Source of the DNA: Gemmatimonadales bacterium
Lineage (GTDB): Bacteria > Gemmatimonadota > Glassbacteria > GWA2-58-10
DNA: 50,286 bases
Assembly: GCA_024278175.1 (NCBI GenBank)
Contig: JAJRTS010000067.1
Coordinates: 1-50,286 of the forward strand
Reading direction: 5' to 3'
Part shown: positions 8,738-49,282 of the stretch, in pieces
Layout of the letters: each line of letters starts with the position of its first letter
Position numbering within the stretch: the first letter of the stretch is position 1
Position numbers and translations under genes: made by a program
Notes under the pieces: generated by a model
Told to the model about the DNA's origin: nothing
Seen by the model: only the letters and a program-made list of their open reading frames with translations
Databases searched by the model: none

Positions 8738-8983
8738 ACGGGACACATCCCCACACTGAAACAACACCCCCCACCCGTTTGTCTTTCTCGCAATCGTTCC
8801 CCTAAAGGTAATGGCCGCGTAATGCCTGATTCCCGATTCGCCACACAGTTTGCTTGACTGCCGCGTGATGGTTAGCTTATCTTTCTGCCAATGTCACGGG
8901 CCATGGTGTATTCGGCTAAGTAGGTTGAATTTAAAGTGCTTATGCCAGTTTTGATGTTGTCGATTGAGATGGGAACGGAACAG

Positions 8984-10243
8984 ATGTCCTTTTTTTTCTT
9001 ACACGGAATACTCCGGCGCCCGGTCCGGTTTTTCAGGCCGGCGTTTTTCCTGGCCGTGCTGCTGGCCGCCTCCTGCGCCAACGAGTTGCCGATCGAGCCG
9101 GAGGTGAGCGAGTTCAGCGAGGCCGGGATCAAGCTCAGCGTCGAAGCGGCCACGTTCCGGCCAACCGTGCTGGGGCGTTCCGACACGTTCGCTCTGTCGA
9201 TAGAGTATGGCGACACGGTTGACATGGTCCTGCTCCTGTCGCTTGACGACACCAGCCATTTTACGGTTTCCCCCGACAGTTTCACCTTCTCCAAGAAAAA
9301 AAAGACGCTCGACGTTACCCTTACTTATACACCCGCCGGCATCGATCAGGCCGACCTGGGCTACCTTGTGCTGATCACCCATAACCCGCCGGATACTCTT
9401 GCCGGTGCTGTCGATACGCTGGGTGTCGACTCGCTGAGGCTCTCCGGGGCGGGTAGCGGACAATTTCTCGATCTGGAACTGATATTCGTGCGCGGCGGTA
9501 CTTTCAGCATGGGCATCGATTCGGCCGCCGCGTTTAAGGACATGGATAAGCGTGACCAGTGGGGTGAGCACACCGTGGTGCTCAGCGATTTTTTCATCGG
9601 CCGTTACGAGGTCACCAACCTTCAGTATTATGAGTTCTGGACCGAGGTCAAGCCGGACCATACACCCCTGGATTCATCCATAACAGGTAGCTGGCCTCAG
9701 GTGGCGCTGCAACAGCCGAATTTCCCCGTGGTGGGCGTAAATTGGGAGGATGCCACGGCGTTCTGTAGCTGGCTCAGCCTGAGAACCGGCGAGCTCTACA
9801 CGCTGCCCACCGAGGCCCAGTGGCAGTACGCGGCCAGTGGAGGGCAAAACCGGCAGTATCCGTGGTCGCTGGTGGGTGATGAGCCTGCCGATACGCTGGA
9901 CCCGGGGCCGCTGGCCAACACGTTCAAGAGCGGCGACGGGTACACCTTCACGGCCCCGGTCGATGCTTTCAGTGCGGGAGCCAGTGCGTTCGGGCCGCTG
10001 AACATGGCCGGTAATGTCTGGGAGTGGTGTCTCGACTGGTACGATAAAGACTATTACCGCGCCGATTACGAAACCTGGATTGATCCGCAGGGTACGCAGG
10101 TGCCGGATAATTTCGTGTTCAAAATCGTTCGCGGCGGGAGCTGGTTCGAGTCGGTCAGCCAGGCGAGTTGCACCAACAGGGCCGCACTCTCGCCGGAGAA
10201 CGGTGAACTCAACACCGGTTTCAGGGTTGTCAGGCTTCCCTGA
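8984..10243 (+). CDS. SUMF1/formylglycine-generating-enzyme-fold lipoprotein
   Basis: About 419 residues from ATG 8984. The signal ends in the lipobox LLAASC, so it is probably membrane anchored. After a ~130-residue beta-rich region resembling an Ig-like domain comes a SUMF1 domain: FVRGGTFSMG, GRYEVTNLQYYEFW, VVGVNWEDATAFCSWL, YTLPTEAQWQYAASGG, NMAGNVWEWCLDWY, RGGSW and the closing TGFRVVRLP. True formylglycine-generating enzymes use a cysteine pair after the RGGS motif; here that region reads RGGSWFESVSQASC with a single Cys, so sulfatase activation is unlikely and a binding or structural role is more probable. In-frame ATGs at 8936, 8942 and 8969 are alternative starts. A second, shorter SUMF1 lipoprotein is encoded at 45020. 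It is followed after 31 bases by a large secreted protein, possibly its partner. Confidence 0.85.
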   Translation: MSFFFLHGILRRPVRFFRPAFFLAVLLAASCANELPIEPEVSEFSEAGIKLSVEAATFRPTVLGRSDTFALSIEYGDTVDMVLLLSLDDTSHFTVSPDSFTFSKKKKTLDVTLTYTPAGIDQADLGYLVLITHNPPDTLAGAVDTLGVDSLRLSGAGSGQFLDLELIFVRGGTFSMGIDSAAAFKDMDKRDQWGEHTVVLSDFFIGRYEVTNLQYYEFWTEVKPDHTPLDSSITGSWPQVALQQPNFPVVGVNWEDATAFCSWLSLRTGELYTLPTEAQWQYAASGGQNRQYPWSLVGDEPADTLDPGPLANTFKSGDGYTFTAPVDAFSAGASAFGPLNMAGNVWEWCLDWYDKDYYRADYETWIDPQGTQVPDNFVFKIVRGGSWFESVSQASCTNRAALSPENGELNTGFRVVRLP

Positions 10244-10274: not shown

Positions 10275-13200
10275 ATGTTAAAAAACCGATTGAAAATGTC
10301 ACTTGTCGCCCTGGCGCTGACAGTACTGGCGACGCCTGTAATTGCCCAGCGGCCCGTGCCGTTGCCGGTGATGGTCAACCCGGACCCGGCCGGTCGCCAG
10401 ACTCAACCGGTAGTGGTGGCTGATTCCAGGGGTGCGCTGCTTGTCGCCTGGCGCGACAGCTCGGCCGGCGGCCGGAGAATCGTGCTGCAGGGGTTCGACC
10501 GGCTCGGCCATCGCGCCGGACCGGTCGTGCAGGCCGCCGGCCAGTTGTACGACGACGCGTTAAACCCGTCCCTGGCGGCCAATATCAACGGTAGAACGGT
10601 CCTGTGCTGGCAGGAGCGCATCGGGAATGTGAACAGGATCGTGCTGCGCCGCTTCGCCATCGACGCCTCCCCGGCCACAACGGTGCTGCCCCTGGCCGGT
10701 CTGAGAGTGCTCCTGGGTTTCTCGCCATCCGTGGCGATCGACTCGATCGGCAAAGTCGCGCTGGTCTGGGCGGATTTCAGAGGGGAATCGGGCAGCGACA
10801 TATACGCCAACCTGTTCGCTTCCGACGACTCTTCGGGCGTGGCGAACACGGACACGCTGGTTTACGGCTGGACCGGGAACGTGAGGATCAACGAGGCGGG
10901 CGGGGGGAACCAGGACAGCCCGGCGGTGGCGATGGATCACAAGGGCAGGGCTCTTGTCGTATGGCGCGACCTGCGGCCCGACAGCCTCGGGGTTTTCTGC
11001 CGCGCTTTCTCCGAACGGGGAACTGCGCTGGGCTCGTTCCGGCTCGGTGGCCTGGACCCCGCGGAGATCACGCTGCTCGGCGCACCGGTGGTGGCGGCGG
11101 CCGGTTTGAACCCCGATTCCAGTACGTTCATGGTTTCCTGGGTGGAAACCGACACGCGCAACCGCAACAGTCTGATGTTGGCGCGTGTCGATCTGGAGTT
11201 GTTTTACTCTCTCCCTGTAATGATAGTGGACACGCTGTTGTATCCCCAGGTGGTCCGTCAACGGGCAGGGCTCAAGTTTGCCAGGCCGGCCCTGGGGGGT
11301 AACAGGGACGGCGACGTCACACTGGTCTGGTCCGAGCTCGATGGTGAGCTGGACCAGCTTTTCGGCGTGATGTTCAACTCTTCCGGCACGACCCTTCCCC
11401 CGGCCCTGCGGCTCACCTCGCCCGAGCAGGGATTCGGTGCGCCGGCGAGCAATCCCGCGCTGTTCACCGGCAGTAAAGGCTCTTTTACCCTGCTCTGGCA
11501 GGACTCCGGCCGTGGCGACCCGGACATTCGCTTTCAGCGCTACACGAGTACGGGGCAGGTCGAACTGCCTTTGTATCTCTCTCCAGGCTCCGGTAACGGC
11601 GCTAACCGGGCGATTTCTTTTCTCGGCCTGCCCGCTGGTGGCTACCAGATGTTCTGGGAGTACGAACGGGAAAATTTTTCTCCGCTGATATACAGCGCAA
11701 GTTTCGATAACGCGGGTCGCCTGCTGGAAGTCCCCGGCCCGGTCTCTCCCGATGGTTCCCGTCAGCGCAGGCCGGTAACCGCCTCCGGTGAAGACGACTT
11801 GCAACTGCTGGCCTGGGAGGACTCCGATAACCAGGGTTACCGCGTTGTGTATTCGATCAGGCGTCCGGCAACCGCTACGGAGTTCGAGCGCAAGGTGCTC
11901 AGTTCCTCGGCCGGCAGCCATCTGGGTTCCCTGGCCGCGGCTATCGGTCCCGGCGGCATGATCCACATGCTGTGGGAGCGCTGGAGCCAGGGCGCAAGCG
12001 CACCGGATCTGATGTTGGCCCGGTTGGACAGCAGCGGCGCCCCGCTGGGCTCGCAGCTTACCGTGGCCCCGGCGGCCTCGGGCGGCGGACGGCTGGCCTC
12101 GGTGGCGGCGGGGCCGGGGGGGAACCTGATGGTGGCCTGGCGTCAGGGCGGTTTATCCGATAATAACGCAAAAATAGTCGCCAGGGTTTATTCTTCCTCC
12201 GGCAGCGTGGTCCGTAACCGGATCACGGTCAGCCGGGACACGCTGGAGTATATCGGCAGCATCTCCGGCCCCACGCTGGCGGCCAGCACCGCCAGCGGCA
12301 ACTTTCTCGTGCTCTGGCGTGAATTTTACAGCGACCGTAACCTGTTATATTACCGCCTTTACGACGCTGCCGGCGACAGTGTGCAACTGCCCGATGGCCG
12401 ATGGCGCGCCCGGCTGGGGGCCGTTGCCGCGCTGGACGACAACGACCGCTCCTACGGCGGGGCCGCGGTGGCCGTGGACTCGACAGGCGGATTTCTCGTC
12501 CTCTGGTCCGAATCCAACCCCACGGGCTCATCGGGCCTGTTCGGCGCGCGTCTCGATCCGCTGGGAGCGCCGCTGGGAGCGCAGTTCCAGGTTCCCGGCG
12601 TAACGGCGGCGGCCTTGCCGGTTGTCAGCATTCTGGAACAGCAACGGGTGGCGATCGCCTGGCAGGACACGTCCGGCACGCAGCTCAGTTTCCTGGCGGT
12701 GCAATTGCGCTTCTACTCCCTGCTGGGCCAGGTGCTGCTGGCCTCGTCCGGGTACGAGGCGCGGGAGTTGAAAGTCCATGTGGCGGGCGTTGCCCGGGAC
12801 TCGGCGGCCGTGGCCGCCAGCGGCAGCTTCCGTTTCGGCAGCCTGCCGGGCGGGAATTACCGGGTCTGGGTCAGCGCCGGGGGGATTGGACTGCCGGGCA
12901 CCTCGCGGGAAATCGAGCTGGCCTCTTCCGGCCCGCCTGAGGTAAACATGGGCGTGGCCGCGGACCTCAGGGACGCGGGGTCCATGCTGCCCAGGGCCGG
13001 AACGGCGGAACTGGCGCCCAACTCGCCCAACCCGTTCAACCCCTCCACCACGATCAGTTTCAGCGTGGGAGGCGAGCGGTCCCTGCCTGCGCGTCTCGCG
13101 GTTTACGATATCCGTGGCGCGCTGGTGCGCACGCTGCTCGACGAGCTTGTGGAGCCGGGAACCCGCCGCCTGGAGTGGGACGGCCGCGACGGGTATGGCC

Positions 13201-13283
13201 GGCGGTTGTCATCCGGTGTATATTTCCTGCGCCTGAACGCCGGATCGTACTCCGGGGTGCGCAAGATGATACTGCTCAAGTAG
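10275..13283 (+). CDS. Large secreted repeat protein with FlgD-like C-terminal sorting domain
   Basis: A 1002-residue protein with a cleavable signal (LVALALTVLATPVIAQ). Most of it consists of repeated ~50-60-residue blades with the pattern 'VAxDSxGxxLVxWRD', for example AVVVADSRGALLVAWRD, AVAMDHKGRALVVWRD and AVAVDSTGGFLVLWSE, suggesting a beta-propeller-type fold. Then comes a short carboxypeptidase-regulatory-like segment, and the end is the FlgD-like Ig / type IX-like tail: NSPNPFNPSTTISF, then LAVYDIRGALVRTLL, GRRLSSGVYFLRL and a final KMILLK. This tail is common on secreted proteins of FCB bacteria and is thought to route or anchor them. The function of the propeller is unknown; no catalytic motif is visible. 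It starts 31 bases after the SUMF1 lipoprotein and may be co-transcribed with it. Confidence 0.82.
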   Translation: MLKNRLKMSLVALALTVLATPVIAQRPVPLPVMVNPDPAGRQTQPVVVADSRGALLVAWRDSSAGGRRIVLQGFDRLGHRAGPVVQAAGQLYDDALNPSLAANINGRTVLCWQERIGNVNRIVLRRFAIDASPATTVLPLAGLRVLLGFSPSVAIDSIGKVALVWADFRGESGSDIYANLFASDDSSGVANTDTLVYGWTGNVRINEAGGGNQDSPAVAMDHKGRALVVWRDLRPDSLGVFCRAFSERGTALGSFRLGGLDPAEITLLGAPVVAAAGLNPDSSTFMVSWVETDTRNRNSLMLARVDLELFYSLPVMIVDTLLYPQVVRQRAGLKFARPALGGNRDGDVTLVWSELDGELDQLFGVMFNSSGTTLPPALRLTSPEQGFGAPASNPALFTGSKGSFTLLWQDSGRGDPDIRFQRYTSTGQVELPLYLSPGSGNGANRAISFLGLPAGGYQMFWEYERENFSPLIYSASFDNAGRLLEVPGPVSPDGSRQRRPVTASGEDDLQLLAWEDSDNQGYRVVYSIRRPATATEFERKVLSSSAGSHLGSLAAAIGPGGMIHMLWERWSQGASAPDLMLARLDSSGAPLGSQLTVAPAASGGGRLASVAAGPGGNLMVAWRQGGLSDNNAKIVARVYSSSGSVVRNRITVSRDTLEYIGSISGPTLAASTASGNFLVLWREFYSDRNLLYYRLYDAAGDSVQLPDGRWRARLGAVAALDDNDRSYGGAAVAVDSTGGFLVLWSESNPTGSSGLFGARLDPLGAPLGAQFQVPGVTAAALPVVSILEQQRVAIAWQDTSGTQLSFLAVQLRFYSLLGQVLLASSGYEARELKVHVAGVARDSAAVAASGSFRFGSLPGGNYRVWVSAGGIGLPGTSREIELASSGPPEVNMGVAADLRDAGSMLPRAGTAELAPNSPNPFNPSTTISFSVGGERSLPARLAVYDIRGALVRTLLDELVEPGTRRLEWDGRDGYGRRLSSGVYFLRLNAGSYSGVRKMILLK

Positions 13284-29366: not shown

Positions 29367-30323
29367 GTGACCAGCCGCTTCAGCCGTCTCGGGCGCGACA
29401 ATATCCGCACGATCCCGATTTCCACCAGAGAGCACAAGGTCAGTGTAGAGCATTTTTCCGATCCGCGCGCCGCTTCTTTTATCGAACGTCTGCCGGAGCA
29501 GCTTAAAGGCTCCGCTTGGAAAGAATTCTGCGGCTGGGTGGCCGATGCCTTCCGCACGCGCAAACCCGTGGCGCTGATGCTGGGGGCGCACGTGGCCAAG
29601 GTGGGAGTCACCCCGTTTCTGATCGACTGGATCGGCCGGGGGCATATCTCGGCCGTTGCGTTCAACGGGGCCACGGCGATCCACGATCTGGAGATAGCCC
29701 TCTGGGGCGGCACCAGCGAGGACGTGGAGGCGGGCCTGGGTGATGGCTCGTTCGGGATGGTGGACGAAACCCCCGAAGCCTTTGCAGAAGCGCTGGAGAT
29801 CGCCACGGCAGAAGAAATGGGGCTGGGCGAGGCCCTGGGCGTCTTGCTGGAGCGCCGCCAGGCTCCTTACGGGCACTGCAGCATGATCGCCGCCTGCCAC
29901 CAGTGGAAAATCCCGCTCACGGTGCACGTGGCTATCGGCACCGACACGATCCATCAGCACCCGGCCATCAGCGGGGCGGCCCTGGGCGCGGCCTCGATGG
30001 CTGATTTCGAGGTATTTTGCCAACAAATCGCGCTGCTTGAGCCCGGTTCGGTGGTGATGAACATCGGCAGCGCGGTGCTCCTGCCCGAGGTGTTCCTTAA
30101 AGCGCTCACCACCGCCCGCAACCTGGGCCACAAGGCGGAGGGGCTGGTTACCGCCGATTTCAGCATGATCCCCCAGTACCGCCCGGCCGTTAACGTGGTG
30201 GGCCGCCCGGTGCGCAAGGGTGGTGGCAAGGGCTACGCTTTTACCGGGCACCACGAGTTGATGATTCCGCTGCTCTACGATTGTGTGGAGGAGTTGATTA
30301 GGGAGCCGGACGTGCAGGTGTGA
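29367..30323 (+). CDS. Deoxyhypusine synthase-like Rossmann protein of unknown function
   Basis: A 318-residue protein starting at GTG 29367. It has a Rossmann-like nucleotide site (ALMLGAHVAKVGVTPFLIDWIGRG), a conserved-looking block FNGATAIHDLEIALWGGTSE, then GLGDGSFGM, and HxxIxTDTIHQHP further on. The 'NGAxAIHDxE' block and overall layout recall the deoxyhypusine/homospermidine synthase superfamily, but bacteria lack eIF5A and the catalytic Lys of true DHS is not evident to me. Similar uncharacterised proteins, as I recall, sit beside heptose/LPS genes in other bacteria, which fits this operon. Its 3' end overlaps the convergent HhH gene by 26 bases, an overlap that looks like the edge of an insertion. 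Confidence 0.55.
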   Translation: MTSRFSRLGRDNIRTIPISTREHKVSVEHFSDPRAASFIERLPEQLKGSAWKEFCGWVADAFRTRKPVALMLGAHVAKVGVTPFLIDWIGRGHISAVAFNGATAIHDLEIALWGGTSEDVEAGLGDGSFGMVDETPEAFAEALEIATAEEMGLGEALGVLLERRQAPYGHCSMIAACHQWKIPLTVHVAIGTDTIHQHPAISGAALGAASMADFEVFCQQIALLEPGSVVMNIGSAVLLPEVFLKALTTARNLGHKAEGLVTADFSMIPQYRPAVNVVGRPVRKGGGKGYAFTGHHELMIPLLYDCVEELIREPDVQV

Positions 30324-38858: not shown

Positions 38859-41600
38859 CTACTGCCTGGGTGCAAAAGCCTTGCCGAGGTCGAACTCGCC
38901 GCCGCCGCGATAGATCTCCAACTGGGCTGCAAGCGCGGTATCGCCGGGGAATTTTTCCAGGTATTTTTCCAGCGCCCCGATGGCCTGTTCGCGCAGGTCC
39001 GCCTTGTGAAAGAGCATGAACAGGTTGGCGTATGAGTTGCGGTTGCCGGGATCGAGAGCGATCGACTGGTTTAAGAATTCGGCTGCTGCTTCCAGGTCGT
39101 TGTTGTTCGTAGCCAACTGGGCCAGTTGCTGGTACATCCTGGGTTGCAGGGGCTGGTTGGAAAAGTCGGCGAACGAGTCCAACATTTCCCTGGCCTCCTT
39201 GTACTGACGGTTTTGCGCATAGAGGTTGGCCAGGGCAAAATCCCACTGGTGCGGCTGGCCGAAAAACTTGCGGGCCCAAATATTGGCCTCGATCGCCTTA
39301 TCAAGTTTGCCCTGGCTCTGGTAAGCGCTGCCCAGCCAGGCGTAAGGAGCCGCGAAATGGGAGGCCAACCGCACGTTGGCTTCCTCGCCGCCTTTCTTGT
39401 CGCGGAAAAAAGTTTTATAGGTGTATACTTTATTAAGCAGGCTGTCGGTCCTGGCCACGTTGATAAAGACACCAGCCACGCCCGGAACGGGCTGAAGGTT
39501 GGGGTCGTTTTTGGCCAGCTCGGCCGCCCTGGTCTCGTTGATCCGGTAGACCGCGGCCTCCATCGTCATGAACGGAGTCAGCCCGACGCGGTTGCTCTCC
39601 GGCACGGTAGTGGTGAAATAGAGCGGTCTTTTCCACTTGTTGGTGCGCAGGATATCGAGCAGGACCATGTCCTTGACGTACATGATCGACCCTTCCGGGA
39701 ACTTGAGCTCAATATTGCCCAGCTTGAAGTTTATTTCCTGCGGCAGCCTCATCGGCAGCATCTTGTCAATCTGCTCGTCGCTGTAGCTGATCGGCACCTT
39801 CGGTTCCATGTCGCGCATCTGCTTGATATACCAGGTGGTGTTCAGCAGAGAGAGGTTGACAACCCGGCAGTCCTGGCGCACGTGCTCCACTTCCTGGATG
39901 TACCACAGCGGAAACGTGTCGTTGTCGCCGTTGGTGAAAATTATCCCGCCCTCATCGAGGGAGTTCATGATATTGCGCGCGTACTGGGCCGGGATCAGGT
40001 TTCCGCTGCGGTCCGCGTCGTCGTAATTGGCCACCATCGGCACGAAACACGGCAGCAGGACCACCGCAGCCAGCGCTGCGAACGCGCTGCGTCCCAGCCG
40101 CGCCTTCGCGGTGCCCACGGCCAGCGAACGGCGGATATTGTCCGCGATAGCAGCCAGGCCGATCCCGCTCCAGACGCCGAAGAAGACGAACGAGACGATG
40201 AAGAAATAGTCGCGCTCACGGACCTCGTGCATCGCCTGGGGGAACTCGTTGAACTGGGAGTAGCCGAGCTTGAAATTCATGTAGGTGTTGAGCACGGGGC
40301 CGGTGATCAGGAACACGGCCAGCCAGAACCAGAAGGTCTTGTGCTCGCTGCGCCAGTGACGGTAGGCTCCGTAAAGCCCGATCGGGGTGAACAGCACGGT
40401 GAGCAGGTTGCCGCCGTACTGCCAGCCGAAATACTTGGTGAAAAACGGGATGTTATATTTGAAGTAGAAAACCACGTTTTCCACCAGGTCGTTGACCGAG
40501 GTCATTGCAACTTTATCGCGGATCAGGGTCCAGACCTGGCGGGGCATCACCCCGTAGGCGCTGCCGTACTGCTCACGGCCAATCACCGCCCAGAACGAGG
40601 CCAGGTTGGAGGGGTCGCCCTCGTTGATCGCGGGCGAGAGGTTGGCACGGATCAGCAGGTAGAGGTGCAGGCTGAATCCAAGCAGGAACAGGCCGAGGGC
40701 CATGCCGAAAAAGCCGAGGGATTTTTGGCGGTGGCTCCACCAGGCGCACGCGCCGGTAAGGACCACGCCCAGGAACATCGCCCTGGCGCTGCCAACGTAG
40801 GAGGGCAGGTCGAACAGGACATCCAGCACCGCGCCGAGATGGTTCATGGTTTCGACAAACAGGCCTGGTTGTCCCTCGCCGGCCTCACTGAACCGGCGGA
40901 ACACCAGTCCCAGGTCCAGGCCCTTCATCACCAGCAGGTACACGCCCAGGAACATGCCCACGATCGATACCCAGTAGCGCCAGTGCTTGCGGTCGTGGAG
41001 CAGGGTGTAAATAATCACCGCCGGAGAAACCAGCAGCACGATCAGGTGGTTGGCGATCGAGAGGCTGACGATATAGACCACCAGCAGCAACGTGCGCTGC
41101 ATCCGCTGCCTGTCCAGCGACTGGCCCATGTAAACCATCAGCCAGGCGATCAACATGAACGTGGCGGTGGCCACGGCGTAAACCTCGAACTCGGTGGAGT
41201 TGCTCCAGGTGGTGCGCATGAACGAGGGGATAATGGCGCTGGCGAACGCGCCGCCGTGGACCAGCACGCGGCCGGGCAGCGACTCGGGGTCCTCCAGCCA
41301 GGTGGATATAATCCGCACCACGATCAGGTAGATCAGCAGTGCTCCGGCGGCGCCGCAGAGCACGGAGAGAAAATTAAGCCGCTCGGCCACGCTCAGCGGC
41401 AGCGGGAGTGCCGAAAGCACGCGACCGATAATCACGAACAGCGGAGTGCCCGGCGGATGAGGGATGCCCAGCGTGTAGCTGGCGGCGATGAACTCTCCGG
41501 CGTCCCAGAACGTAACCGTGGGCGCCATCGTGAACAGGTAACCGGCAAACGTGAACAGGAATGTGAGCGCCGCTCCGATCCAGTGTTCTTTTTTATACAT
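38859..41600 (-). CDS. DUF2723 polytopic membrane protein with C-terminal TPR-like domain, paralogue 1
   Basis: A 913-residue protein. N-terminal half: a DUF2723 membrane domain with about 11 hydrophobic helices, starting with the conserved LFTMAPTVTFWDAGEFIAAS and SLGIPHPPGTPLFV-like segment (acidic and His residues in the first loop recall the GT-C fold of protein O-mannosyltransferases). Central region is soluble and rich in aromatic residues (TNGDNDTFPLWYIQEVEHVR is a striking conserved loop). Residues from about 770 to the end are helical repeats (IEANIWARKFFGQPHQWDFALANLYAQNR) resembling TPRs. DUF2723 proteins are typical of FCB bacteria and are suspected to be glycosyltransferases; the substrate is unknown. 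A strong terminator follows. Close paralogue of the next gene upstream. Confidence 0.85.
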   Translation of the reverse strand: MYKKEHWIGAALTFLFTFAGYLFTMAPTVTFWDAGEFIAASYTLGIPHPPGTPLFVIIGRVLSALPLPLSVAERLNFLSVLCGAAGALLIYLIVVRIISTWLEDPESLPGRVLVHGGAFASAIIPSFMRTTWSNSTEFEVYAVATATFMLIAWLMVYMGQSLDRQRMQRTLLLVVYIVSLSIANHLIVLLVSPAVIIYTLLHDRKHWRYWVSIVGMFLGVYLLVMKGLDLGLVFRRFSEAGEGQPGLFVETMNHLGAVLDVLFDLPSYVGSARAMFLGVVLTGACAWWSHRQKSLGFFGMALGLFLLGFSLHLYLLIRANLSPAINEGDPSNLASFWAVIGREQYGSAYGVMPRQVWTLIRDKVAMTSVNDLVENVVFYFKYNIPFFTKYFGWQYGGNLLTVLFTPIGLYGAYRHWRSEHKTFWFWLAVFLITGPVLNTYMNFKLGYSQFNEFPQAMHEVRERDYFFIVSFVFFGVWSGIGLAAIADNIRRSLAVGTAKARLGRSAFAALAAVVLLPCFVPMVANYDDADRSGNLIPAQYARNIMNSLDEGGIIFTNGDNDTFPLWYIQEVEHVRQDCRVVNLSLLNTTWYIKQMRDMEPKVPISYSDEQIDKMLPMRLPQEINFKLGNIELKFPEGSIMYVKDMVLLDILRTNKWKRPLYFTTTVPESNRVGLTPFMTMEAAVYRINETRAAELAKNDPNLQPVPGVAGVFINVARTDSLLNKVYTYKTFFRDKKGGEEANVRLASHFAAPYAWLGSAYQSQGKLDKAIEANIWARKFFGQPHQWDFALANLYAQNRQYKEAREMLDSFADFSNQPLQPRMYQQLAQLATNNNDLEAAAEFLNQSIALDPGNRNSYANLFMLFHKADLREQAIGALEKYLEKFPGDTALAAQLEIYRGGGEFDLGKAFAPRQ

Positions 41601-41726
41601 GTTCCTGGTCTTGTGCTTGAGAATTGGTTTTTACACCGGCCGTACACCGGTGTATATGGGAAAACTGTATATTCAAGCAAACTAATAAGGAACTGTATTT
41701 CAGGCAAGCAGGATACGCCTTCTACT

Positions 41727-44489
41727 TCAGTTACCGGCCCCTAACGCTCGGGGTACGTCGAACGCTCCGCCGCCGCGGTAGCGCTCCAGCTCACCGGCCG
41801 CGGTAGTGTCGGCTGGGAAATGACGCAGGTAGGCTTGCATCAGCCCGACCGCCTCCTCGCGCCGCCCAAGCGCATCGAGCAGGATGAAGGTGTTGGCGTA
41901 GGATTTTCGCGCTGTGGAGTCGATAGCGAGCGCGCCTTGCAGGATTTGCAGCGCGCTTTCGAAGTCGCGTTTGTCGGCGGCCATTTTGGCGATCTGGTAG
42001 TACCTCTGGATAAGCTCGTCGGTGGACATCGTTCCGGCGAGCGAGTCAAAAGTGGCCGCGGCCTCTGAGTAGCGGCCGGCGCGGGCATGGAGGAAGGCGA
42101 TATTGACGCTGTAGCGGTTAGGGTCCATGTAAAAGCGGTTCGCCATTTTCAGCAATTCGATAGCCTGGTCGAGGCGGCCCAATCTTTCCATTGCCATTTC
42201 AAGGCGCAGGGTCGGCCCGGCGAAGCGCTTGACAGTGGCTTTGTTTTCGCTCTCTCCGCTTTCTCCGGGCCGGAAGAACGAAGTGTAATCGTATTTCTCG
42301 GTCAACAGCTCCCAGGAGCGCGATACATTAACACCCGTGCTGTCGCTGGGCAGCAGCACCACGTTGCTGTCGGTGGAGGCCACCTGGGCGGCTTTGCGCC
42401 CGACCACGCGGAACATCAGGCCCTCCAGCACGAAGTACTGGGTAAGCCCGGTGCGGTTGTGCGCGGGAATGGATGTGACGAAATAGAGCGGTCTGCGCCA
42501 GTGGTTGGTGCGGATGATATCGAGTACGGCCAGGTCCTTGACGTATAAAACCGAGCCTTTGGGAAATTCTATTTTCATCTCGCCGAATTTGAACACCCGC
42601 GGTTTGTCCAGCCGGGATGGGCGCAACGAGTCGATTGTCCCGTCGGGCAGGGAGATCGGCACTTTCGGCTCCATGTCGCGCATCTGCTTGTAATACCACG
42701 GCAGGTTGAGCAGGCTCAGGTTGACTATCCGCACGTCGGGGCGCACGCCCTCCACCTCCTGAATATACCACAGCGGAAACGTGTCGTTGTCCCCGTTGGT
42801 GAACAGGATTGCATCGGGCGGCAGGAATTCCAGCACGTTGCGGGCGTAAACCTGGGGGATGTAGTTGCCGCTGCGGTCGGCGTGGCTCCAGTTGAAAGCA
42901 ACGGGCAGCAGCGCGGGCAGGAATATCAGCGAGCAAAGCCCGGCCGCCAGTGAGTTCTTGTTAGCGCGCGCCTGTCCGGCCAGTGCTTTGCGCAGCTTGT
43001 CCACCGCGGCTGCCAGGCCGACAGCCGCCCAAAACGCGAGGCAGGCGAACGAGATGATAAAGAAGTAATCGCGGTCGCGGGGTTCGTGGAGGCGCATGCT
43101 CTGCACCGCAGGGTGCAGTTGCACTTGGGGAAACTGCGAGTAGCCGAATTGAAAGTTCATGTATAAATTAAGAATCGGACCGGTGAGCAAGAACAACGAC
43201 AGCCAGAACCAGAACGATTTGCGCTCGCTGAAAAAGTGTCTGACGGCTCCCGCCACGGCCACCACCAGAAAGGCGGCGGTCAGCCACGGGCCGCCGAACT
43301 GCCAGCCGAGATACTGATTGTAGAACGGAAGGTTATACTTGAAGTAGAACTTGATGTTTTCAACCAGGTCGCCCAGGCCTGCGATTGCCGTTTTGCCGGT
43401 CAGCAACGTCCAGACCTGGCGGGGGAGGATGGCGTAGGAACTGCCGTACTGTTCGCGGCCGATCACTGCCCAGAACGCGCGCAGACTGTCGGGATCGCCC
43501 TCGTTGATCATCGGGTCCAGCGCGGCCCGCAGCGGAAGATAGAGGTGAACGCTGAAGCCCAGCACGAACAGCCCCATCGCGGCGGCGAAAAACGGCAGGG
43601 ATTTCTCCCGCCAGCCCCACCAACCACAGAGCGCGAGCAGCAGCACACCGACAAAAAACGACCCTCCGCTCGCCAGGTGGGCGCCGGGGCTGCGGAGTAC
43701 TTCCAGCAGTCCGCCGAAAATCGCGGCCGTGCTGGCCAGAACTCCCTCGGCCACGGTGGTGTGGTTATGGATACTCGTGGCCAGCGCTCCAAGGTCGAGC
43801 CCTTTGTTGACTGTCAGGTAGGCGCCGACCATCAGACCCAGCACACTGAGCCAGTAGTTGCGATGTTTCCGGTCGTGCAGCACGGTGAAGATCGCCACGC
43901 CGGGGGCGGCCAGCATTACGATCAGATGGTTGGCTATCGAGAGGCTGATAATGTAGACCACCAGCAGCAACGTGCGGCGGTTGCGCTGGAAGTCGTCCGA
44001 GGCGCTCATGTAGAACATCAGCCAGCCCACCAGCAGGACAGTCGCGGTGGCCAGCCCATAGACCTCGAACTCGGTCGTATTGAGCCAGACGGTGCGAAGG
44101 CCGGCAAAAATCGTCCCGGCGCTGAACGCCCCGCCGTGGACCACCAGGCCCTTGAGCGGGCCCTCGTCCGTGGAGCGCTCAAGCAGGTGAGCGGTTATCA
44201 GGTAGAGCAGCCCCGCCGCCACCGCGCCGCTGAGCACGGAGAGCAGGTTCATTTTAAACGCGGTGCTCAGGCCCAACGGCAGCAGGCAAAGCACCCGCCC
44301 CAGCAGCACGAACAGCGGAGTGCCCGGAGCGTGGGGTATCCCCAGCGAGTAGGCGGCTGCCATGAATTCGCCGGCATCCCAGAAAGTGACCGTGGGAGCT
44401 ACCGTGAGCAGGTAGACCACAAGGGAAAACAGCGCGGTTACCAGGGCGCCGATCTTGTGTGCGCTGCGGTATAACGGCTGATTGTTCAT
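41727..44489 (-). CDS. DUF2723 polytopic membrane protein, paralogue 2
   Basis: A 920-residue protein with the same plan as the neighbouring gene: VAPTVTFWDAGEFMAAAYSLGIPHAPGTPLFVLLGRV near residue 35 (shown in part), long polytopic domain, the same TNGDNDTFPLWYIQEVEGVR loop and a C-terminal TPR-like array. The two proteins are alike across their whole length, including DMEPKVPIS and the IRTNxWxRPLYFxT block, so they arose by tandem duplication. Spacing is 126 bp with an unremarkable gap, and both lie on one strand, so co-transcription is likely. Two copies may act on different acceptors or form a heteromer. Confidence 0.85.
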   Translation of the reverse strand: MNNQPLYRSAHKIGALVTALFSLVVYLLTVAPTVTFWDAGEFMAAAYSLGIPHAPGTPLFVLLGRVLCLLPLGLSTAFKMNLLSVLSGAVAAGLLYLITAHLLERSTDEGPLKGLVVHGGAFSAGTIFAGLRTVWLNTTEFEVYGLATATVLLVGWLMFYMSASDDFQRNRRTLLLVVYIISLSIANHLIVMLAAPGVAIFTVLHDRKHRNYWLSVLGLMVGAYLTVNKGLDLGALATSIHNHTTVAEGVLASTAAIFGGLLEVLRSPGAHLASGGSFFVGVLLLALCGWWGWREKSLPFFAAAMGLFVLGFSVHLYLPLRAALDPMINEGDPDSLRAFWAVIGREQYGSSYAILPRQVWTLLTGKTAIAGLGDLVENIKFYFKYNLPFYNQYLGWQFGGPWLTAAFLVVAVAGAVRHFFSERKSFWFWLSLFLLTGPILNLYMNFQFGYSQFPQVQLHPAVQSMRLHEPRDRDYFFIISFACLAFWAAVGLAAAVDKLRKALAGQARANKNSLAAGLCSLIFLPALLPVAFNWSHADRSGNYIPQVYARNVLEFLPPDAILFTNGDNDTFPLWYIQEVEGVRPDVRIVNLSLLNLPWYYKQMRDMEPKVPISLPDGTIDSLRPSRLDKPRVFKFGEMKIEFPKGSVLYVKDLAVLDIIRTNHWRRPLYFVTSIPAHNRTGLTQYFVLEGLMFRVVGRKAAQVASTDSNVVLLPSDSTGVNVSRSWELLTEKYDYTSFFRPGESGESENKATVKRFAGPTLRLEMAMERLGRLDQAIELLKMANRFYMDPNRYSVNIAFLHARAGRYSEAAATFDSLAGTMSTDELIQRYYQIAKMAADKRDFESALQILQGALAIDSTARKSYANTFILLDALGRREEAVGLMQAYLRHFPADTTAAGELERYRGGGAFDVPRALGAGN

Positions 44490-45019: not shown

Positions 45020-45889
45020 TTGAAACTTGCATTCCTCCGGCTGTCGGTGCTTGCCACTCTGGTGATCTGTTCCTGTGGCGAAGAGAGCCCCGACATCTTC
45101 AGCGTGGATATTGTCAGCTATCTAGACGAGGGCCGGGATATCGAGATGGTTTCCCTGCCCGGTGCTACTTACGCCATGGGTAGCGATTTGTTTCCCCCCT
45201 TTGTCATGGAACCATTAGGCCCCGGTGGAGCGCTTGTTGCCGTTTTTAACACCGAGCGCCCGGTCCATGTGGTCACGGTTTCGGGGTTCCTGATCAGCAG
45301 CACGGAAATAACCCACGAGCAGTACCAGGCCGTGATGGGCACCAATCCTTCGCGCTTCAGCGGTGTGGCCAATATGCCGGTGGAAAATCTGAACTGGCGG
45401 GAGGCCGCCGATTTTTGTAACGCGCTCAGTAAAATGATGGGGCTGGCTCCCTGCTATGACCAGGACTACGCCTGCGATTTCAGTGCCAACGGGTTTCGTC
45501 TGCCAACGGAAGCGGAATGGGAATATGCCGCCCGCGGCGGTACTGATCTGGAGTACAGCTTTGGAGATAACCCGACAGGTTTGAGCCGCTCCGGCTGGTT
45601 TGCCGGCAACAGTGAAGGGGGGCCCTCGGCGGTGGCCGGTAAGGAGCCAAACCAGTATGGGCTATACGATATGCACGGCAACGTGAGCGAGTGGTGCCAG
45701 GATCTGTTCGATTTTTACACCTGCGGCGCGCAGGTCGACCCGGTCAATATCGAGACAGGGGCGCTGAGGATCGCACGCGGCGGAAGCTGGGCCAGCACCG
45801 CCACCGAGACCCGCTCGGCGAATCGCGTCCCCTACTTTACGGACAGGCGGATCGGCACTCTTGGTTTCCGGATCGTACGGCGGCCGTAA
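45020..45889 (+). CDS. SUMF1-fold lipoprotein, short form
   Basis: A 289-residue protein starting at TTG 45020. The signal ends in LVICSC, a plausible lipobox, so it is probably lipid anchored. The SUMF1 domain has YAMGSDLFPP, EITHEQYQAVMG, PVENLNWREAADFCNAL, GFRLPTEAEWEYAARGG, YDMHGNVSEWCQDL and RGGSWASTATETRSANR, closing with GTLGFRIVRRP. The Cys pair that makes formylglycine is absent after RGGSW, so it is unlikely to be a formylglycine-generating enzyme. It stands directly before a TonB-dependent receptor gene, and the gap is only a few bases, so a role at the outer membrane with the receptor is likely. Compare the longer SUMF1 lipoprotein at 8984. Confidence 0.85.
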   Translation: MKLAFLRLSVLATLVICSCGEESPDIFSVDIVSYLDEGRDIEMVSLPGATYAMGSDLFPPFVMEPLGPGGALVAVFNTERPVHVVTVSGFLISSTEITHEQYQAVMGTNPSRFSGVANMPVENLNWREAADFCNALSKMMGLAPCYDQDYACDFSANGFRLPTEAEWEYAARGGTDLEYSFGDNPTGLSRSGWFAGNSEGGPSAVAGKEPNQYGLYDMHGNVSEWCQDLFDFYTCGAQVDPVNIETGALRIARGGSWASTATETRSANRVPYFTDRRIGTLGFRIVRRP

Positions 45890-45943
45890 GTGATGAAATG
45901 CAACCGGGCTTTTCTGACCCCATGGCTGGAGAAAGAGTTGTCA

Positions 45944-48442
45944 ATGCAAACGGACCATGAGATGAAAACCAGCAGGCATTCCAAATCCCTGGCCGCACTG
46001 CTCGTTTTGCTGATGACGGGTTTTATGGCGCTTGAGTTGCCGGCCCAGAGTGAGCGTCGGGGACGGCTCGACATCTCCGGCTACGTGCGCGACGAGGAAA
46101 CCGGCGAGGCCCTGCCTTACGCCAATATCGTGATAGTCGGCTCCTCGCAGGGGGCGGCCACCAACCAGGACGGTTATTTCGTGATCGTCAACCCGCCCGC
46201 AGACACCTGCCGGCTGAAGATTACCTATGTCGGTTTCGCCACCAGGGAAATCCTGATCGACACCCGCAAACCCTCCGAGCGCCGCCAGGCTATCCTGCTG
46301 CGCCGCCAGACTATCGAACTGGAGGGGTTGACTGTCGAGAGCGAGATCCCGCCGATCATGGAAGTGATGGGCGAGCCGGGCCAGGTGGCGATAAGCCCGG
46401 CGGAAATAGCCGTGCTGCCCAACATGGGCGAGGTCGATCTGTTCCGCTCTTTTCAACTCATGCCGGGAATCAGCGGGGTCAGCGACGGCTCGTCGGGTCT
46501 GTACGTGCGTGGAGGCACTCCCGACCAGAACCTGATCCTGTTCGACGGGATGACGATCTACCACGTGGACCATTTCTTCGGCCTGTTCAGCGCGTTCAAC
46601 GCCGATGCGGTAAAAGACATCCGGATCTACAAGGGCGGATTCCCCGCGGAGTTCGGCGGACGCATCTCCAGCGTGGTCAACATTACCGGCAAAGCCGGCG
46701 ACGTCTCCGGGGTGCGCTACGGCGGCGGGGTCAACCTGCTCAGCGGCCACGGCATGGTGGAGGGGCCGCTCGGCAAATCCGGTTCGTTCCTGCTCGCGAT
46801 GCGCCGCTCGTATACCGATGTGATCCGTAGCGGCCTCTACGACAAGCTCTTCGATTTCGTCTCCGGTCCGGTCCTCGATACGCCGGCCGACAACCCGTTC
46901 GTGGCCACGGGCACCGAGGAACCGGATTTCTACTTCTACGACATCAACGGCAAGCTCACTTTCAACCCTCGTGGCGATGACGTTTTTTCGCTCAGTTTCT
47001 ATAACGGCCGTGACAACCTGGGGCAGTCCAACGTGCTGGCCGGGGAGAGTTTTGCCTGGAAGGGCGAGGACTACCTGCTCGAGGACCGGCAGGCCAGCCT
47101 GAGTACGAACAAGCGCACGCGCTGGGGCAACCGGGGAGTGAGCGCCAAGTATTCCGGCAAGCTCAGCGACCGCTATTACGCCAGCCTGCTGGTGTCGCAG
47201 ACGCGCTATTTCAGCGACTACACGCTCTCCCGTAATTTCCGCTCCAGCTCGGCGGCCGACAGCCTGTCCTATTTCCGCTCGGCCGCCGGCGCCATGAGCG
47301 AGAACAACGAACTTCGGGATTTTACGGTCGTGTTCGACAACGAGATCCATCCCGCCAGCGGCCACGACCTCAAGGCGGGCGTGGGATTCAGCAAACTGAA
47401 CGCCCATTACTACTCCGTGCTGAACGACACCACCGACCTGCTGCGGCGCAACTCCTCGGCCAGCCTGGCCACGGCCTACCTGCAGGATCTGTGGCATGTC
47501 ACCGACAAGTTCGATTTCACCGCGGGAATACGCGGCTCCTACTACGACCGCACCGGCGAGAACTACGTCGAGCCGAGAGCCTCGGCCGTTTATGCGCTCA
47601 CCGGCTACCTGAGACTCAAGGGCGCCTGGGGCCGCTACCATCAGTTCGTCAACAGGATCACCAACGAGGACGTGCTCGAGGGCAGCCGGGATTTCTGGAT
47701 GCTGGCCGGCGATGATACCGATGTGGGGTACGCCGAGCACTGGATAGCCGGCATGAGCCTGGAGGACAACGAGTATCTGCTCGATGTGGAGGGTTACTAC
47801 AAGGACCTGGGCGGCGTAGTGGAATATACGCGCCGGGCCAGTTACAACCGCGACCTGCTGGAGGGGCTGCGCACGCGGGAGGTCGCGCCGGGCACGGCCT
47901 TTTTTCAGGGTAGCGGCGTGAGCAAGGGAATCGACATCCTGGTCCAGAAAAAGCGCGGCAAGCTCACCGGCTGGATCGGCTACAGCCTCAGCCGGGTGCG
48001 CTACCAGGTCCCCGGTCTCAACGGCGGCAGGCCTTATCCGGCCAGCCACGACAGGACTCACGAGATCAACGTGGTCGGCAAGCTTGCGCTGGGTAAATGG
48101 GATGTCTCGGCCACCTGGGTGTTCGCTTCCGGCAAGGCGTATTCGGCCCCCGAGAGTCAGTATTACCTGCGGCTGCTCGACGATCGCAGTCAGGGCTACA
48201 TCCATATCAGCGACCGTAACGCCCATCGCCTGTCAGACTACCACCGCCTGGACCTGAGCATCTCGCGTAATTTCGAAACATCCGCGTTCGATTACGTGAT
48301 CGGGTTTTCGGTGTTCAACGTTTACGACCGGAACAACTACTGGTATCGCCAGTTCAACCTCGATACGGTTCCAGTGTCGATCAGCGACGTGTCCATGCTG
48401 GGCATGACGCCGACTGTTTACTTCAAAATCTATTCCCGGTAG
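45944..48442 (+). CDS. TonB-dependent outer-membrane receptor with carboxypeptidase-regulatory-like domain
   Basis: About 832 residues from ATG 45944 (ATGs at 45893 and 45962 are also possible). After a signal peptide (SLAALLVLLMTGFMALELPAQ) comes a CarboxypepD_reg-like domain, LDISGYVRDEETGEALPYAN, typical of FCB TonB receptors. The plug follows (GEVDLFRSFQLMPGISGVSDGS, VRGGTPDQNLILFDGM, IYKGGFPAEFGGRISSVV), then a beta-barrel of alternating aromatic strands ending in the aromatic strand MTPTVYFKIYSR. Such receptors import siderophores, vitamins or glycans using TonB energy; no TonB/ExbBD is in the window. The SUMF1 and DUF4249-like lipoproteins on either side suggest a dedicated uptake complex. 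Ligand unknown. Confidence 0.9.
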   Translation: MQTDHEMKTSRHSKSLAALLVLLMTGFMALELPAQSERRGRLDISGYVRDEETGEALPYANIVIVGSSQGAATNQDGYFVIVNPPADTCRLKITYVGFATREILIDTRKPSERRQAILLRRQTIELEGLTVESEIPPIMEVMGEPGQVAISPAEIAVLPNMGEVDLFRSFQLMPGISGVSDGSSGLYVRGGTPDQNLILFDGMTIYHVDHFFGLFSAFNADAVKDIRIYKGGFPAEFGGRISSVVNITGKAGDVSGVRYGGGVNLLSGHGMVEGPLGKSGSFLLAMRRSYTDVIRSGLYDKLFDFVSGPVLDTPADNPFVATGTEEPDFYFYDINGKLTFNPRGDDVFSLSFYNGRDNLGQSNVLAGESFAWKGEDYLLEDRQASLSTNKRTRWGNRGVSAKYSGKLSDRYYASLLVSQTRYFSDYTLSRNFRSSSAADSLSYFRSAAGAMSENNELRDFTVVFDNEIHPASGHDLKAGVGFSKLNAHYYSVLNDTTDLLRRNSSASLATAYLQDLWHVTDKFDFTAGIRGSYYDRTGENYVEPRASAVYALTGYLRLKGAWGRYHQFVNRITNEDVLEGSRDFWMLAGDDTDVGYAEHWIAGMSLEDNEYLLDVEGYYKDLGGVVEYTRRASYNRDLLEGLRTREVAPGTAFFQGSGVSKGIDILVQKKRGKLTGWIGYSLSRVRYQVPGLNGGRPYPASHDRTHEINVVGKLALGKWDVSATWVFASGKAYSAPESQYYLRLLDDRSQGYIHISDRNAHRLSDYHRLDLSISRNFETSAFDYVIGFSVFNVYDRNNYWYRQFNLDTVPVSISDVSMLGMTPTVYFKIYSR

Positions 48443-48451
48443 GCCCGCGAG

Positions 48452-49282
48452 ATGAGATCGACAATAACAACTTGCCTGGCCCTGCTGATTCTGCTCAGTG
48501 GGTGCGAGGGCGCAAAACTGCTGCCGCCGGTCAACGAGCTGGTGGTGGTCAGGGGTTATCTTCAGGCCAATGCATCGTTCAGCGGTTTGAATATCTCCTC
48601 CACGCTCGATCTGGGCAGTCAGGATACGATCGGGCCTCCCGTGAGCGACGCCGTTGTGCGTGTCACCCGCGGCGAGACCTGCTACGAGTTGATCCACTGG
48701 GGCAAAGGTAATTACAGCACCCCCTCAAACCCCTACACCCCCGATTGCCCGGACTGCGGGCTGTTTCTGAACGCGGGCGATACGATCGGGCTGGAGGTGT
48801 TCCATTTCGGCAAGGTGGCCACTGCCAGCACGGTGATTCCGCCGGGGCCGCGAAACCTGTCGCTCTCTTCCTCGCTGGTGGTCGTTCCCCCGGCGGCAGG
48901 GGGAACTCCCCAGGGTGACGCATTCGAGATAAGCTGGGAGCTGGAGGGAGATTACTGGTTTTATCTGGAACTGAGGAATATCGGCAATATGTTTGTGCCG
49001 GTGGCGGGTGGGGATACCCTTATCGGATACGCGCCGCCGGTGAAAACTCAACTTTTCAATACCAGACGCTATATTGTCACCTGGGATCTGCTGCCTTACT
49101 ACGGCCATTACCGGGCCAAGGTGGTGGCCGTAAATCGCGAGTACGTTGAATTGTACCTCACCCGCAACCAGGACAGCCGGGACCTCAACGAGCCGGTGAG
49201 TAATGTCACCAACGGGCTGGGTATTTTTACCGCGGTCAACAGCGACTATGTCGAGCTCGATGTGATAAGCGCGGCCCCCTGA
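48452..49282 (+). CDS. DUF4249-like lipoprotein
   Basis: A 276-residue protein, start at ATG 48452, nine bases after the receptor stop. The signal ends in LILLSGC (lipobox), so it is lipid anchored. Mature sequence has beta-rich SDAVVRVTRGETCYEL and a closing EPVSNVTNGLGIFTAVNSDYVELDV, which matches the C-terminal signature of DUF4249, lipoproteins that follow TonB receptors in Bacteroidetes and act with them as surface-exposed partners. Cysteines in PDCPDCG may form a disulfide. The direct pairing with the upstream receptor supports the assignment. Followed by a convergent DinB gene. Confidence 0.82.
   Translation: MRSTITTCLALLILLSGCEGAKLLPPVNELVVVRGYLQANASFSGLNISSTLDLGSQDTIGPPVSDAVVRVTRGETCYELIHWGKGNYSTPSNPYTPDCPDCGLFLNAGDTIGLEVFHFGKVATASTVIPPGPRNLSLSSSLVVVPPAAGGTPQGDAFEISWELEGDYWFYLELRNIGNMFVPVAGGDTLIGYAPPVKTQLFNTRRYIVTWDLLPYYGHYRAKVVAVNREYVELYLTRNQDSRDLNEPVSNVTNGLGIFTAVNSDYVELDVISAAP

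Follow-up and report, generated by a model that had tools for sequence, protein, structure and literature searches.

A TonB-dependent transporter capped by a surface lipoprotein has been described in BtuBG and in XusAB, where XusB is reported to hand a siderophore to XusA (PMC13142918). In the SusCD utilisomes, the transporter and its lid lipoprotein are encoded together with an extra surface lipoprotein, and the extra lipoproteins around the SusCD gates are reported to bind substrate (PMC7618045). The system closest to the locus described here is BT2172/BT2173, a transporter with a DUF4249 lid, for which co-function of the two proteins has been reported (PMC11003636); the receptor-DUF4249 pair as such is already known as a transporter-lid pair. 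A separate story is that of lectin-fold display proteins such as TvpA, the Treponema denticola variable protein (2y3c), which is a predicted surface lipoprotein (PMC4891356). In proteins of this type, solvent-exposed variable residues are reported to form the binding site (PMC6328139).

Here we describe a three-gene locus from Candidatus Glassbacteria (hereafter, the family), treated as a class of Gemmatimonadota in a 2024 survey (PMC11596202). The whole stretch of DNA analysed (the window, 50,286 nt) is contig C56 of G000, a 4.18 Mb draft genome that is 97% complete. As judged from gene order and phylogeny, the SUMF1-fold lipoprotein encoded in front of the receptor-DUF4249 pair is a putative lineage-specific third part of the unit: the complete trio occurs in one family only, and it is the receptor-DUF4249 pair that is widespread and already described. 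A search of titles and the beginnings of abstracts, with most subscription papers and bioRxiv preprints outside its scope, returned no report in which a SUMF1 lipoprotein accompanies a TonB receptor-DUF4249 pair. DUF4249 is scarcely named in the portion of the literature covered, despite its spread over many phyla, and no substrate named for it was found there. A dedicated third surface protein offers a handle on this problem, in that the ligand of SUMF1 would point to the substrate of the pair, and the trio would join the stories of lectin-fold display proteins and of lid-type nutrient gates.

Organization of the locus

All three genes lie on the forward strand. The first (45020..45889) starts with TTG and encodes a SUMF1/FGE-sulfatase-domain lipoprotein of 289 aa (PF03781, 157.3 bits; cut-off 23.3), the signal of which ends in ...VICSC, with the predicted lipidated cysteine at residue 19 (lipobox ICSC, codon 45074..45076). 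The second (ORF 45890..48442) encodes a TonB-dependent transporter with an N-terminal CarboxypepD_reg_2 domain (PF13715), a plug (PF07715, 34.9 bits) and a barrel (PF00593, 47.7 bits), all above cut-off; its start is probably the ATG at 45944 or 45962, rather than the GTG at 45890, which would leave a gap of ~54-72 bp behind the SUMF1 gene. The third (48452..49282) follows after 9 bp and encodes a DUF4249 lipoprotein (PF14054, 39.0 bits; cut-off 28.5) with a signal ending in ...LLSGC and a lipobox cysteine at residue 18 that is invariant in all 36 aligned rows. The genes, order and coordinates proposed for the trio by an earlier, sequence-only reading are right, apart from small corrections of the starts of SUMF1 (TTG) and of the receptor (ATG). 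A promoter and terminator scan at the trio gave results near chance, with nothing clearly above it.

The receptor scores far below the SusC/RagA model (40.5 of 368.25 bits), and neither the receptor nor the DUF4249 protein has a sequence match among solved structures. Two beta-sandwich domains are predicted for the latter (pLDDT 88); its structural matches are fibronectin-III, cytokine-receptor and macroglobulin-like domains, the best of which (Z 9.1) is too weak to name a relative. Divergent from the trio, positions 38859-44489 of the window hold two related TMEM260-like (O-mannosyltransferase-like) genes in tandem, found at the same place in G001, the genome of a sister species.

Lost active site and fold of the SUMF1 protein

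The SUMF1 protein has the fold of formylglycine enzymes (FGE) and lacks their catalytic cysteine pair. In alignments, the two positions, encoded by the end codons of 45794..45811 (forward strand), are occupied by Ser259 and Thr264, so that the loss noted in the sequence-only reading is borne out and FGE activity is excluded. A catalytic pair among the SUMF1 homologues, which would speak against that reading, was looked for and found in none of the 28 motif segments readable from 27 of the 35 related SUMF1 proteins (L080 repeats L062). Many relatives retain the second cysteine and none the pair; the loss is therefore general in the group and not special to the gene in the window. Two sequence signatures set the trio copies apart, namely N-x-ERPVH, present in all six, and [VI]DI[VI]...G.DI, which follows the lipidated cysteine in all five copies that are complete at the front; both were read off the trio copies themselves, and neither occurs in any further SUMF1 protein of the comparison, in which L080 again repeats L062.

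The best structural match of the SUMF1 model (26 alignment rows, pLDDT 85, pTM 0.85) is TvpA (Z 36.6, rmsd 1.5 over 243 residues, 40% identity). PvdO comes second, and the values for human FGE (Z 27.4, rmsd 1.9, 216 residues) and for the GldK/PorK structure 9mzu (Z 26.9) are lower still. With TvpA, the protein shares the fold, the lipoprotein nature and the absence of the FGE cysteine pair in the aligned stretch; it differs in that no retroelement was found here and in that the SUMF1 gene is part of a transporter operon. The protein falls short of every equivalog model, scoring 98.5 of 350 bits for GldK, 62.1 of 500 for PvdO and 49.2 of 360 for EgtB. GldK/PorK of the type IX secretion ring is likewise a SUMF1-fold outer-membrane lipoprotein but belongs to another operon, and with a score this far below the NCBIfam cut-off a GldK-like role in the ring was rejected.

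Recurrence of the trio in Glassbacteria

A total of 61 genomes were searched with SUMF1 and with DUF4249, and the matching loci were then fetched. The same trio, for which the sequence-only reading had advised looking in related genomes, was found in four of the six family genomes examined (G000, G001, G002 and G003), representing three genera, and its occurrence is restricted to this one family of uncultured bacteria. G004 lacks any receptor of this type. G005 carries only a SUMF1-free pair, but its assembly, like that of G003, is fragmentary and its best SUMF1 match lies at a contig end, so that the absence of the trio is not firm. Synteny blast of the window from position 30000 on and three loci showed that the genes found in common between genera are the three alone, the flanks being unrelated; within the genus, the TMEM260-like neighbours and one further gene are found in common as well. 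Recurrence in four of six genomes with unrelated flanks between genera places the trio beyond chance.

The receptor-DUF4249 pair with and without SUMF1

Each of the four trio-bearing genomes contains a second receptor-DUF4249 pair. A tree of the receptors unites the four that are linked to SUMF1 in one clade (SH-aLRT 99) beside five unlinked ones, and linked and unlinked receptors all fall inside a single Glassbacteria clade. SUMF1 thus distinguishes one clade of the pair from its sister clade, and the pair can in general do without SUMF1, as the sister pair in these genomes shows. The upstream side of the unlinked Glassbacteria pairs is present in four of five genomes, and in all four (L064, L065, L066 and L067) the pair is preceded by a gene for a small secreted Spy/LTXXQ-like protein and not by SUMF1, the LTXXQ likeness resting on sub-threshold Pfam matches of relatives. 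At L066, a sigma-70-family (ECF-like) gene comes next, hinting at stress or metal regulation.

Linked and unlinked receptors are separated by 11 fixed differences, of which the linked clade holds the derived state in five, and no indel or strong set of fixed changes marks a docking site. A docking insert specific to the linked clade was considered and rejected: the only difference of this kind comprises five residues near residue 654, at most of which six of the seven outgroups match the linked clade.

Outside the family, a contig scan with the receptor alignment recovered receptor-DUF4249 pairs in records titled as many different phyla (among the best 80 of 141 relatives); a contig scan with the DUF4249 protein as query gave no matches. 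DUF4249 adjoins the receptor in 73 of 75 loci, a count that excludes seven loci repeating named records as well as the Glassbacteria loci, the two exceptions being L088, at a contig end, and L140. At none of the 75 loci, 66 of which have at least 1 kb of upstream sequence, do the 700 bp upstream contain a SUMF1 gene on the same strand. The position ahead of the receptor is taken by a CBM9-like protein in nine loci, a label that rests on sub-threshold matches, and by a Spy-like protein in six; both models were built from members of the same 75-locus set, and the counts include their own seeds. CBM9-like lipoproteins of ~250-290 aa precede the pair at L087, L092, L097, L100, L122, L131 and L149 (Calditrichota, Electryonea and Neomarinimicrobiota).

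Duplication and divergence of SUMF1

The number of SUMF1 copies beside the pair varies, with two in tandem in G002 and a second copy behind DUF4249 in G001. In the SUMF1 tree, the G001 copies group together and so do those of G002, which therefore points to separate duplications in the two genomes, after which the copies remained intact next to the pair. The 5'-truncated G003 copy stands apart in the best unconstrained tree, and a single clade of all six trio copies is neither shown nor rejected (AU p 0.358). The second G001 copy, the protein of which is 84% identical to the first, carries 105 bases of the upstream region of the first copy (97%). Directly behind it lies a 74-base scar of the receptor gene (L060:6080-6153; 22 codons, 93% identical); the duplicated segment therefore once included the receptor start, and only SUMF1 stayed intact.

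The G001 copies show 47 nonsynonymous and 13 synonymous codon differences (dN/dS 1.05), with far fewer at conserved positions than expected (3 in 89 versus 13.1, p 5e-5; 1 in 43 versus 6.3, p 0.005). The pN/pS ratio is 0.23 in the core (Fisher p 0.03) and 1.40 in the remainder, where the excess over 1 is not significant (Fisher p 0.36) and positive selection is not shown for this copy pair. The second copy thus retains its fold, and the remainder is free to change, possibly under relaxed constraint. The G002 copy pair is older (dN/dS 0.24), and the same residues vary in both copy pairs slightly more often than expected (15 versus 10.1, p 0.048), a weak signal. Between G000 and G001, the dN/dS values of SUMF1 (0.21) and DUF4249 (0.34) both exceed that of the receptor (0.16).

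A candidate three-part import machine

With slightly better than even confidence, we propose that the TonB-dependent transporter, the DUF4249 lid and a dedicated lipoprotein of the FGE/C-type-lectin fold for ligand capture or docking constitute an outer-membrane import machine. The DUF4249 lipoprotein would form a lid over the extracellular mouth of the transporter, and the SUMF1 lipoprotein, presumably located at the cell surface and devoid of formylglycine chemistry, would capture a ligand or dock it next to the lid. By direct contact, SUMF1 might then pass the ligand on to the receptor, a role like that of the surface binding lipoproteins in SusCD utilisomes. By analogy with these systems, SUMF1 most likely serves the import gate as an accessory that captures or docks the ligand. 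The 'surface ligand-binding partner of the receptor' of the sequence-only reading remains the best reading of the protein, because it is not an FGE, is conserved with the receptor and has as its nearest solved relative a surface ligand-display lipoprotein.

Like BT2172/BT2173, the locus encodes a receptor with a CarboxypepD_reg domain and, directly next to it, a DUF4249 lipoprotein, whereas the SUMF1-fold gene in front of the pair is found in one family only. The resemblance to SusCD utilisomes lies in the joint encoding of transporter, lid and extra surface lipoprotein, but the lid here is DUF4249 and not SusD, the unit includes no glycosidase and contact among its parts is putative. XusB and BtuG have other folds, and the BtuBG and XusAB pairs are not known to include a SUMF1 protein.

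The genomic linkage could also reflect co-expression only, with SUMF1 working at the surface independently of the import pair, for instance as an adhesin or a general lectin. Such a protein might well vary in copy number beside the pair and be one of the 10 to 19 SUMF1 domains per family genome, nearly all of which lie away from receptors, and for TvpA-like proteins a part in contacts with other organisms has been proposed (PMC4891356). However, only one receptor clade shows the linkage, which has outlasted a complete change of the flanks, and the linked copies bear signatures of their own, so that we regard independent action as unlikely, though not negligible. It is less probable still that SUMF1 is catalytic and, as an accessory of another FGE-fold type resembling PvdO or EgtB, modifies the ligand before uptake. 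PvdO, which belongs to a siderophore pathway, is indeed the second best structural match (Z 28.4), but the FGE cysteine pair is absent, none of the GldK, PvdO and EgtB equivalog models is reached and the best fit, TvpA, is not known as an enzyme.

The rapid change of the non-core parts of the G001 copies, with the core kept, and the retention of duplicated copies would suit a shield or decoy of the receptor, the change being driven by phages or bacteriocins and import helped only indirectly. Yet the G001 comparison does not demonstrate positive selection, and SUMF1 is not exceptional, diverging between G000 and G001 about as much as DUF4249 (59% and 60-64% identity, respectively); we accord this explanation little credence. 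A hypervariable target of a diversity-generating retroelement, which the closest solved structure, TvpA, is known to be, seems highly improbable, considering that G000, G001 and G002 yield no RVT_1 match and that the window between 44400 and 50286 contains no direct repeats of at least 40 bases; for G000, a retroelement was rejected on these two grounds. The sole RVT_1 match among six genomes searched is at G003:C40:6243-6650 (L159), G003 being also the family genome richest in SUMF1 domains (19).

An extension of the preferred import-machine reading, which we consider doubtful, would treat the receptor and DUF4249 as a core of two parts, joined by a third secreted component that can be exchanged: a Spy/LTXXQ-like protein, a CBM9-like lipoprotein or SUMF1. 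Glassbacteria SUMF1 would then be a retroelement-free counterpart of TvpA with exposed parts diversifying after duplication, a variable lectin scaffold that sets the catch of the import gate.

SUMF1 domains elsewhere

The suggestion that this organism uses the SUMF1 fold as a shared part of its outer membrane is not supported. Of the 11 SUMF1 domains in G000, the trio copy alone has a receptor plug within 5 kb. Across the six family genomes, a comparison by hand of where 78 SUMF1 domains and 105 receptor plugs lie placed just six SUMF1 domains within this distance, all in trio loci, and on these positions SUMF1 was rejected as a general receptor partner.

A second, longer SUMF1 lipoprotein, thought to precede a propeller-type secreted protein, does exist in the window (ORF 8936-10243), where it is distant (28-32% identical) and belongs to another tree branch, but no propeller domain was found in the protein encoded next (10275-13283). 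The latter, directly behind, is a secreted protein of 1002 aa; all that was found in it is a T9SS sorting tail (TIGR04183, 28.5 bits; cut-off 23), besides FlgD_ig/CarboxypepD_reg matches below threshold. On other contigs of G000, one protein has a NapC/NirT-like multiheme cytochrome domain at its N-terminus and a SUMF1 domain behind it (L167:6398-7972, contig C59), and a 1038 aa protein combines several choice-of-anchor D domains with a C-terminal SUMF1 domain (L163:1582-4695, contig C44). SUMF1-like proteins are also encoded on IMG/VR viral contigs (L180-L258), in 386 of 428 pattern-matched stretches, and the C-terminal segments of several of these proteins differ strongly.
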